From Actinobacteria bacterium HGW-Actinobacteria-6 (GTDB taxonomy: Bacteria; Actinomycetota; Coriobacteriia; Anaerosomatales; Anaerosomataceae): a stretch of DNA of 49,729 bases. Below are positions 11,522 through 19,468 of this stretch, piece after piece (positions within the stretch are counted from its first letter, which is position 1; each line of letters opens with the position of its first letter). The notes beneath the pieces are model-generated. The model did not search any database, had not been told where the DNA came from, and saw nothing but the letters and a program-made list of their open reading frames with translations. Where the stretch lies: contig PHEU01000013.1 in assembly GCA_002841295.1 (NCBI GenBank), positions 1 to 49,729 of the forward strand, read 5' to 3'. A program made the position numbers and the translations under genes.

Positions 11522-13453
<1,932 letters not shown>

Positions 13454-15211: not shown

Positions 15212-16309
15212 CTAGCCGAGACGAACAGGCATGAGCAGGTAGATGAAGTCTTCTCCCTCGGGATGCTTCATAACACCCGGCTTCAAAGGACTGACTATCT
15301 CGAGCGCAATCTTGTCGCCATCTGCCACAGATATTCCGTCGGTTAGATAGGCGTGGTTGAACGCAATCTCAACATCTTCGCCTTGAATATCAACTTCGAG
15401 ATCCTCTGTTGCTTCTCCAACGTCTTGTGTCTGTGCTGAGATAGTGAGGATTCTGTCAGCAGTAGTCACTTTCAAACGCAAAGGTGCACTGTGCTGCGCC
15501 ATGAGTGAGACTCTCTTAACAGCTTCAAGGAATTCCTGCCGACCAACAATAAGTTTGGTGACGAACTCTTTTGGAACCAACTGTTTATGGTTTGGAAACG
15601 ATCCTTCAATTCTTCGGCTAATGAATGTGGTGTCGCCAAAAGAGAACACGACTTGATTCTCCGAGACTCCGATCTTCACTGTCTTTGACGAGGACCCAAG
15701 GCGTGCCACATCTTCAATGGCCCGTCCAGGAACGACGGCCTCAAGTGAGCCAAGAACTCCTTCGACTGGAACCTCTCTCACACATAGGCGATAGGAGTCC
15801 GTCGCAACCATGCGCAGCTGCCCTTCTTCAACGACAACAAGCACACCTGTGAGGATGGGCCTGGTTTCATCTCGGCTCACTGCTCTTGAGACCTGATGAA
15901 CGACCTCTGAAAACACTCCTGTTGGAAGAGAAACCATTTCGCCTGGAACCACATCGGGGAACTTAGGAAAATCATCTGCAGAAAGTGTTCTTACAACGAA
16001 AGACGATTGAGCACATGAGACGGTTGCCCCCGTGGGATTTGTTTCAATAGTGACAGCTGACTCTGGGAGATTACGAACAATGTCAGTGATGAGCTTTCCA
16101 GGGATAACCGCACTTCCTGCTTCATCAACCCTTGCTTTTGAACTTGTCTTGATCGATATCTCAAGGTCGGTCGAGTTGAGGCGCAGCTCATCTGCTTGAG
16201 CTGAGAAAAGGATTCCTGAAAGAATCGGAAGAGTTGTTCTTGAAGAGAGTCCCTTTGAGGCTATCGATAGGGCGTCTAACAACTCTGTGCGGGCTATAGA
16301 GACCTTCAT
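15212..16309 (-). CDS. dnaN: DNA polymerase III beta sliding clamp
   Basis: The 365-residue protein has three consecutive clamp folds. It starts MKVSIARTELLDALSIASKG and ends YLLMPVRLG, the canonical beta C-terminus that forms part of the peptide-binding pocket. It dimerises round DNA and tethers Pol III and other clamp clients. ATG 16309 follows AAGGAA by seven bases. The 217-bp gap to dnaA carries the putative unwinding element, so dnaN likely has its own transcript as well as readthrough from dnaA. Confidence 0.97.
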   Translation of the reverse strand: MKVSIARTELLDALSIASKGLSSRTTLPILSGILFSAQADELRLNSTDLEISIKTSSKARVDEAGSAVIPGKLITDIVRNLPESAVTIETNPTGATVSCAQSSFVVRTLSADDFPKFPDVVPGEMVSLPTGVFSEVVHQVSRAVSRDETRPILTGVLVVVEEGQLRMVATDSYRLCVREVPVEGVLGSLEAVVPGRAIEDVARLGSSSKTVKIGVSENQVVFSFGDTTFISRRIEGSFPNHKQLVPKEFVTKLIVGRQEFLEAVKRVSLMAQHSAPLRLKVTTADRILTISAQTQDVGEATEDLEVDIQGEDVEIAFNHAYLTDGISVADGDKIALEIVSPLKPGVMKHPEGEDFIYLLMPVRLG

Positions 16310-16335
16310 TCCGATTCCTTTCTTAGATAATCAAC

Positions 16336-16374
16336 TAATAGTAATAGTAGTAGTGGTGTTGATGATGTGGATAT
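16336..16374 (-). other. Putative origin unwinding element: DnaA box plus DnaA-trio tract
   Basis: A DnaA box (ATATCCACA on the minus strand, 16366-16374, one mismatch to TTATCCACA) directly abuts ten triplets that all start with T on the plus strand (16336-16365). Reading 3'-5' from the box on the plus strand they are AGT AGT TGT GGT GAT GAT GAT AAT GAT AAT. The last six match the DnaA-trio consensus 3'-[G/A]AT-5', which in Bacillus subtilis loads a DnaA filament on single-stranded DNA next to a DnaA box. AT-richer sequence toward dnaN (16316-16335) would be the melted region. Further boxes lie at 16441-16449 and 16512-16520 (TTGTCCACA). Confidence 0.7.
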
Positions 16375-16526
16375 CTCTCAAAACCGCAGGTGAATCTCGG
16401 CGTGTCTATTGTGGGAATTGCTGTGAACTAACTGCTCCGTATATCCACACTTTCAACAGGTACCAATTTCTTTCAACAGGTTCACCCTGTAATCCCCACT
16501 CTACCCCCAGGTTGTCCACATAGTTG

Positions 16527-17922: not shown

Positions 17923-18759
17923 TCAGTTGTTGAAGAGTGAATCCAAAGAACTCACACCGAGAGGTGCGAGTACCCTCTTGCCGTTCTCATCAGAAATAAT
18001 CAACCCACACTCTTCTAGTGATGCCAGATCCCGGTAAGCGGTCGACAAACCAACACCGAGTTCTTTCGATACCACCGATGGGCCCACTGAGCCCAGCTCG
18101 AGAACCAATGACAAGACTTGTTTCTGCCTAAGACTGAGTCGTGGGGCAGCAGCGTCTCTATCAAGAGACAGCTCGTCAGGTTCAACCACCTCAGGCTCTG
18201 GGTCCAAATGAATCGTGACCACACAACCTTGTCCGAGGTTATCTTCGATCGTGATCATGCCGCGAGAGAAGGTGAGGCATTCTTTTGCAACCGGAAGCCC
18301 AGAGCCAACACCTTTGATCACACTCTTCATATCCTGTGTTGCAGTTGAGAACCCCGGCATGAACACACGCTCTTTGTCGGGGATACCAGGTCCTTGATCT
18401 GCGAACCGGATCGTATTCCCGGCATCAAGAATCGTCACGACCACCTCAGCGAAGTGGGCGTGGATGAGATTCTCAACAACCTCACGGATGACCATATAAG
18501 GCAAAGAGCCGCCGCACTCGTGCGACAACTGATATGTGCGTGAGGAAAGGGCCTCGACAAAAGCACGCGCATCCGAACCCGCTACGTCCTCAACTCTCGG
18601 AGAGGACGTGAGTGAGTCATAGATCGCAACTCGCGCCGAGGATGCCCGCGCCGTCTGCGAGAGCATCGGAGTCTCGCTCAACCGAACCTCTGCGGCTGCA
18701 AGGGTCGGCTTCGGTGCACTAGCAGTATTGGTAGAGCCACCATCAAAGAATGATTTCAA
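17923..18759 (-). CDS. GHKL ATPase / winged-helix protein cotranscribed with dnaA
   Basis: The 278-residue protein combines a GHKL (HATPase_c, anti-sigma/histidine-kinase-like) domain with a DNA-binding domain. The N-box is [13 protein letters not shown] (Asn97), the G1 box is DQGPGIP (121-127) and the G2 box is [12 protein letters not shown] (149-160). There is no His-phosphoacceptor domain. After an acidic linker (about 185-204), residues 205-258 form a helix-turn-helix ([12 protein letters not shown]...[20 protein letters not shown]). TTG 18759 is preferred because AGAGGGGGAGG lies just before it, while a longer reading would extend through the DnaA-box field. Its stop is 13 bases from the dnaA start. 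Family and role unknown; a regulator of dnaA or the origin is plausible. Confidence 0.8.
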
Positions 18760-18773
18760 CGCCTCCCCCTCTC

Positions 18774-19299
18774 TAGTCCACAGATTTATCAACAAAGGTG
18801 ATTTGAAGGCTGTCAGATTAACGTGCTGGTAGATGCCGTATCCACAACGCTGGAGTGAGACTGTAGGCACTCCTTGTGGAAGCCGCTCACCTGGTGCTTT
18901 ACGACTTATCCACAATACTTTCCACATCTGTGGAGAACATCGGCGCCGTTTGAAGCTGCGATAATCAAAACACGCAGGTTGGACGCTATTTGCGGCTGTT
19001 CGACCCTTCCAGGCAACGCCGAAAGCAGGTTCTCCGTACGGATTCTGTGGACAGCACGCCCAACCCGGGATCCGCTAACGGAAGAGGTTGTGGAAAACCG
19101 AACACCTGTCCGTACGTCAATACCTGGAAGGAGCCCCAAAGAGGTCATTACCAGGCTGTTTTCAAGGTGAACCGAGGCATATCCAGCCCTGTGGAAACAG
19201 CGCTGATTCTAACAGAGGGACCCCAAGGGAACAACGAGCGCCAGAGAGTTATCCACAGCTTTCACACTCGTGAATCCTGGGTTTTCCACACTATCCACA
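18774..19299. other. oriC DnaA-box cluster upstream of the dnaA operon
   Basis: The 709-bp gap between the GHKL gene and rpmH is rich in DnaA boxes. Perfect TTATCCACA occurs at 18906-18914 and 19249-19257. TTNTCCACA matches occur at 18929-18937 (minus), 19089-19097 (minus) and 19282-19290. One-mismatch copies occur at 18786-18794, 18838-18846, 19190-19198 (minus) and 19291-19299. Weaker copies are at 18774-18782, 18918-18926 and 19046-19054 (minus). They group into clusters near 18906-18937 and 19249-19299. With the trio element in the dnaA-dnaN gap this is a two-part origin, as in B. subtilis. No gene is visible in this gap before rpmH. Confidence 0.85.
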
Positions 19300-19386
19300 A
19301 TTTCACGACTATTTTCATGCCTGCAGAAGGAAAACAACCGACATGACTATGGAAAGTCCTGAGTGATGATCTCAGCACGCACTTGT

Positions 19387-19416
19387 TTGACACTATTACA
19401 GGCAGGTCGGTATAAT
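19387..19416 (+). promoter_or_regulatory. Consensus sigma-70-type promoter of rpmH-rnpA
   Basis: TTGACA (19387-19392) and TATAAT (19411-19416), both perfect hexamers, are separated by 18 bases. The start of transcription should be near 19423, giving a leader of about 45 nt to rpmH. It is the strongest promoter match in the window, as expected for a ribosomal protein gene at the origin. Confidence 0.9.
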
Positions 19417-19468
19417 CACGAGCCTTAGCGCCCGGGCGTCTACTCGGGTGTCTCGAACGGAGGATCTT

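Follow-up and report, generated by a model that had tools for sequence, protein, structure and literature searches.

A probable DnaA-trio basal unwinding system between dnaA and dnaN in the actinobacterial order Anaerosomatales

The gap between dnaA and dnaN in the genome of Actinobacteria bacterium HGW-Actinobacteria-6 very probably contains the chromosome origin's DnaA-trio basal unwinding system (BUS), as judged from a 49,729 nt stretch of DNA, analysed as a whole and here called the window, and from the corresponding region of related genomes. An element of this kind was to be expected, and Bacillus and Clostridioides are among the bacteria in which a BUS is already known. With the present site, the probable unwinding point and the direction of unwinding can be placed at base-pair resolution in an order of Actinobacteria of which hardly any member has been studied. 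The first cultures of this order, Anaerosomatales (OPB41), have been described (PMC9686372), and a literature search on the origins of Coriobacteriia returned nothing relevant.

Read along the minus strand from 16374 to 16336, the site consists of ATATCCACA, TCATCAACA, CCA and the triplets CTA CTA CTA TTA CTA TTA, and the sequence then continues with GTTGAT. The first two elements are DnaA boxes with one and two mismatches, respectively, which are co-oriented and abut each other (Table 1). On the plus strand, positions 16336-16365 read TAA TAG TAA TAG TAG TAG TGG TGT TGA TGA and are followed at 16366-16374 by TGTGGATAT, whose reverse complement is ATATCCACA, with one mismatch to TTATCCACA. The plus strand, which by analogy is the strand that DnaA would capture, thus carries six in-phase DnaA-trios of the strict published form (3'-GAT GAT GAT AAT GAT AAT-5') pointing to dnaN. 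An earlier note on this DNA had described one box adjoining ten T-initial triplets, six of which match 3'-[G/A]AT-5' in phase. This holds as a reading of the letters, but the four box-proximal triplets are better read as box 2, which had been overlooked, together with the spacer, so that the single box and ten triplets give way to two boxes and six trios. The direction toward dnaN had been given correctly.

Table 1. Features of the proposed origin region, with positions in the window
Feature	Position	Strand	Description and basis
dnaN	15212..16309	-	Pfam
Least stable 30-bp stretch (likely DNA unwinding element, predicted from sequence)	16319..16349	.	Nearest-neighbour energies; trios and AT-rich continuation toward dnaN
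Six DnaA-trios	16336..16353	-	CTA CTA CTA TTA CTA TTA; genome uniqueness, shuffles, conserved phase
Spacer	16354..16356	-	CCA, 3 nt; relatives usually 4 nt, e.g. GCCC or GGCC
DnaA box 2	16357..16365	-	TCATCAACA, two mismatches; abuts box 1; sequence
DnaA box 1	16366..16374	-	ATATCCACA, one mismatch; sequence and box scan; tandem pair kept in relatives
ACCTGC half-block	16386..16391	-	-17 to -12 from box 1; column conservation over 45 genomes
GACACGCC half-block	16399..16406	-	Consensus GAYACRCC; -32 to -25 from box 1; column conservation
Further DnaA box	16441..16449	+	ATATCCACA, opposite orientation; box scan; TGTGGA columns kept in relatives
Further DnaA box	16512..16520	+	TTGTCCACA, opposite orientation; box scan
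dnaA	16527..17909	-	Pfam/NCBIfam
GHKL-ATPase and winged-helix gene	17923..18759	-	Between the origin halves; Pfam HATPase_c and TrmB
Upstream DnaA-box cluster	18786..19299	.	8 boxes with at most one mismatch; box scan

A whole-genome pattern search of the 2,352,599-bp assembly found six consecutive YTA triplets once, at the dnaA-dnaN site, and found no occurrence of the reversed pattern used as a control. Similarly, when the 217-bp gap was shuffled 20,000 times with its dinucleotides preserved, no shuffle produced a box with six YTA triplets within 16 nt, and the highest number reached was three. On both strands of the 49.7-kb window this is the only site at which a DnaA box has three or more YTA (or YTR) triplets no farther than 16 nt away. 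A permissive scan for at least three N-T-N triplets was dropped as a sole criterion, chance sites at 12483 and 44669 also matching; it is the strict YTA/YTR form that carries weight, because the looser rule matches other sites in the window. CTA repeats can arise by slippage, and the tract lies only 26-44 bp upstream of dnaN, which might suggest a trinucleotide repeat made by chance or slippage, or a part of the dnaN leader. We regard this as extremely improbable, given that the tract is unique in the genome and absent from the shuffles, that it is kept, with substitutions, through families in which dnaN identity is down to about 50 %, and that the gap contains no promoter-like or terminator-like site in the promoter and terminator scans and no Rfam match.

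The earlier note had proposed aligning related dnaA-dnaN gaps, and we compared 48 such gaps from the order Anaerosomatales (class Coriobacteriia), comprising the window and 47 further genomes. Nearly all of them have two boxes, a spacer and then about six Y-T-R triplets. The co-oriented abutting boxes lie 9 bp apart in 40 genomes and 8 bp apart in seven (47/48 together), and the spacer is 4 nt long in 34 and 3 nt in nine. The mean YTR run beside a box is 3.9 on the predicted strand vs 1.06 on the opposite strand of the 48 gaps, and 1.07 on either strand of the region upstream of dnaA (41 genomes); runs of at least three occur in 34/48 gaps on the predicted strand, in 0/48 on the opposite strand and in 0/41 upstream regions. 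Under the published N-T-N rule at least three triplets are found on the predicted strand in 45/48 gaps, yet also on the opposite strand in 11/48. When columns were counted in a fixed register from box 2, with the spacer left unfitted, columns 5 to 22 cycled through Y-T-R six times, after which the period was lost; the period-3 phase resultant in this register was 0.69 (n=40). The nominal probability of 4e-9 overstates the case, because the relatives share ancestry and are not statistically independent, but the differences from the opposite strand and from the upstream region stand without that figure. Loss of the triplets in close relatives, which would have spoken against the element, was not seen within the genus: genus-mates keep phased triplets beside the boxes, with changes limited to C/T at position 1 or A/G at position 3. 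The triplet phase is kept within the genus, the order and many other Actinomycetota. The dnaA-dnaN gaps of other Coriobacteriia, and of several further Actinomycetota, have clear box-plus-trio sites, which supports the view of an ancestral trio system. The comparison also supports the earlier interpretation that the helix would open at the dnaA-dnaN site, the opening itself being predicted from sequence.

Some of the variation counts against a BUS. The trios are degraded in one genus of the same family (G006, G016, G020 and G023) and in single genomes such as G037 and G051, and the box-to-trio distance is 12 in the window vs 13 in relatives of the genus, a shift of 1 bp, even though unwinding in B. 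subtilis is slowed when 1 bp is deleted inside the trios. Other changes in the relatives are natural variants in line with structural work on B. subtilis. The central T of the trios mutates mostly to G in trio 4 (CGA or CGG), which corresponds to a central cytosine on the strand that would be captured; in B. subtilis trios, cytosine is the only substitute at the centre that functions well (PMC10721633). A central G was observed in trio 4 in 13/48 gaps (for example, at the same-order loci L042, L043 and L045) and was commoner there than at other trio positions. The spacer, 3 nt in the window, is 4 nt in all three genus-mates examined (L032-L034), a natural 1-bp register change within one genus that could be used to probe the rigidity of the box-to-trio distance.

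The trio site also contains the least stable DNA of the window: nearest-neighbour energies gave the lowest duplex stability of the 49.7 kb at this site with segments of 20, 30, 50 and 100 nt. This would fit a plain AT-rich unwinding element, in which the triplets act through low duplex stability alone and are not read by DnaA, and a survey of bacterial origins describes trios as degenerate in B. subtilis and elsewhere (PMC8287927). However, the relatives keep the Y-T-R phase beyond what AT content would demand: G is often the third base, and trio 4 is CGA or CGG in many genomes, two features that make the duplex more stable; moreover, the period ends after six trios although AT-rich DNA goes on, and the DnaA residues that contact trios are conserved. 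Such an element is therefore, in our judgement, highly improbable. As regards the protein, the best PDB match of the encoded DnaA is that of B. subtilis (8btg), and the trio-binding residues reported there (E183, N187, I190, I193, R202, K222, E223 and E228), as well as the arginine finger R264 (PMC10721633, PMC8287927), are all identical in the window DnaA. N196, which in B. subtilis contacts the third trio base, is unmatched, but it lies beside a small insertion; this was counted against a BUS.

The BUS of B. subtilis (DnaA-box#6/#7 and the DnaA-trios) resembles the present site in its two co-oriented boxes, short spacer and six trios, its location downstream of dnaA and the conserved contact residues of DnaA, and six trios are engaged in the cryo-EM structure (PMC6669920, PMC10721633). 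The two differ in that the stronger box has one mismatch in the window and none in B. subtilis, that the window has a 3-nt spacer and most relatives a 4-nt one, and that an order-specific conserved block lies upstream in the window lineage. The survey cited above, which drew on origins in DoriC, states that a BUS was predicted in 1755/2070 bacterial origins under rules of a box with at most two mismatches, a spacer of at most 16 and at least three NAN trios, the spacers peaking at 10-13 (PMC8287927). The window site fits these rules on the correct strand, the trios lying 12 from box 1 and 3 from box 2.

DnaA-box clusters flank dnaA on both sides, as expected of a bipartite oriC of the B. subtilis / H. 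pylori / C. difficile type, and the earlier note had named the region at 18.8-19.3 kb as the alternative place of opening. This upstream cluster lies between the GHKL-ATPase gene and rpmH (18760-19468). Two of its eight boxes are perfect, their spacing is nearly constant through the order, and the last two form a tandem pair, TTTTCCACA-CTATCCACA (19282-19299), which belongs to a longer conserved stretch and is followed by AT-rich DNA. One possible explanation is that the helix opens here and that the dnaA-dnaN site is merely an accessory DnaA-binding site, as might be suggested by the greater number of strong boxes (eight with at most one mismatch), their nearly fixed spacing, the likewise abutting tandem pair with AT-rich DNA beyond it, and a GC-skew minimum closer to the upstream cluster. 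However, although the boxes are kept, no Y-T-R run of at least three stands beside a box on either strand in 41 genomes, so that trios as a sequence feature belong to the dnaA-dnaN half only, and the least stable 30-bp stretches of the cluster rank well behind the dnaA-dnaN site. Furthermore, the origin of C. difficile, which has the same layout, melts in oriC2 rather than oriC1 (PMC7561715), and we consider opening at the upstream cluster very unlikely. The raw GC-skew minimum lies at 19.6 kb, about 3 kb from the trio site; skew was set aside as too coarse for choosing between the two regions. It was also observed that the stretch at about 19180-19310, directly upstream of the rpmH promoter region, has an order-wide consensus (TTTTCAAGG, GATT.TA.CAA, ACAACG, GTTATCCACAGG and TCCTGGGTTTTCCACACTATCCACAGATT, at fixed spacing) and looks more uniform than the dnaA-dnaN gap.

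The likeness to C. difficile is close. There too the origin is bipartite, with boxes on the rpmH side, an oriC1 that has no clear trio, and DnaA boxes beside trios in oriC2, at the same place between dnaA and dnaN and in the same orientation (PMC7561715). The oriC2 trio tract, CTACTACTATTACTACTA, shares 17/18 bases with that of the window, CTACTACTATTACTATTA, when compared by eye; the full published C. difficile 24-mer matches the window in just 18/24 positions without gaps, because the spacer differs. In vitro, C. difficile DnaA melts DNA in the oriC2 region, as detected with P1 nuclease, and both halves are needed (PMC7561715). Melting has thus been shown there, whereas at the window site it is predicted from sequence, and the two halves of the window origin are separated by an extra gene besides dnaA. 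Because the upstream cluster is trio-less and more stable, and in view of the C. difficile layout, a bipartite origin that would unwind at dnaA-dnaN is the best and most likely reading, with the upstream cluster likely to be its second, non-unwinding half and/or a dnaA control region.

Our current working hypothesis, modelled on B. subtilis and C. difficile, is that domain IV of DnaA-ATP would dock on the pair of adjoining, co-oriented boxes (16374 to 16357) and that an AAA+ oligomer starting there would extend along the plus strand toward dnaN, with one trio of 16353-16336 captured per subunit. In this way the plus strand would be peeled off its partner where the DNA of the window is least stable, and the helicase would afterwards be loaded into the bubble. 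The upstream cluster at 18.8-19.3 kb would be brought near by DnaA, looping out dnaA and the adjoining gene.

That adjoining gene encodes a GHKL-ATPase/winged-helix protein of 278 aa with a TTG start, and it is interesting to speculate on its role. The bipartite motif GAYACRCC-N7-ACCTGC (16386-16406) is conserved across 45 genomes of the order, with its distance upstream of box 1 unchanged, and is possibly a site for another origin-binding protein; on column inspection GAYACRCC showed no fit to the TCCACA core of a DnaA box. Linking the two is speculation: origin opening might need a second factor, with the GHKL/winged-helix protein binding this motif and/or blocks of the upstream cluster and so licensing or restraining the DnaA filament on the trios, which we think unlikely. 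A literature search for a gene upstream of dnaA gave no relevant paper, and the protein reaches no NCBIfam cut-off and so carries no curated family name. It is a candidate replication regulator. Its AlphaFold model (mean pLDDT 83) has an ATPase part resembling histidine-kinase catalytic domains, and the top Foldseek match of the model is a structural-genomics entry, 3lmm (DIP2311), with a low TM-score. In all 80 named loci, from several phyla and spanning Coriobacteriia, Aquicultor, Thermoleophilia, Armatimonadetes, 'ANGP1' and some 'Bacillota' MAGs, dnaA lies directly downstream of the gene.
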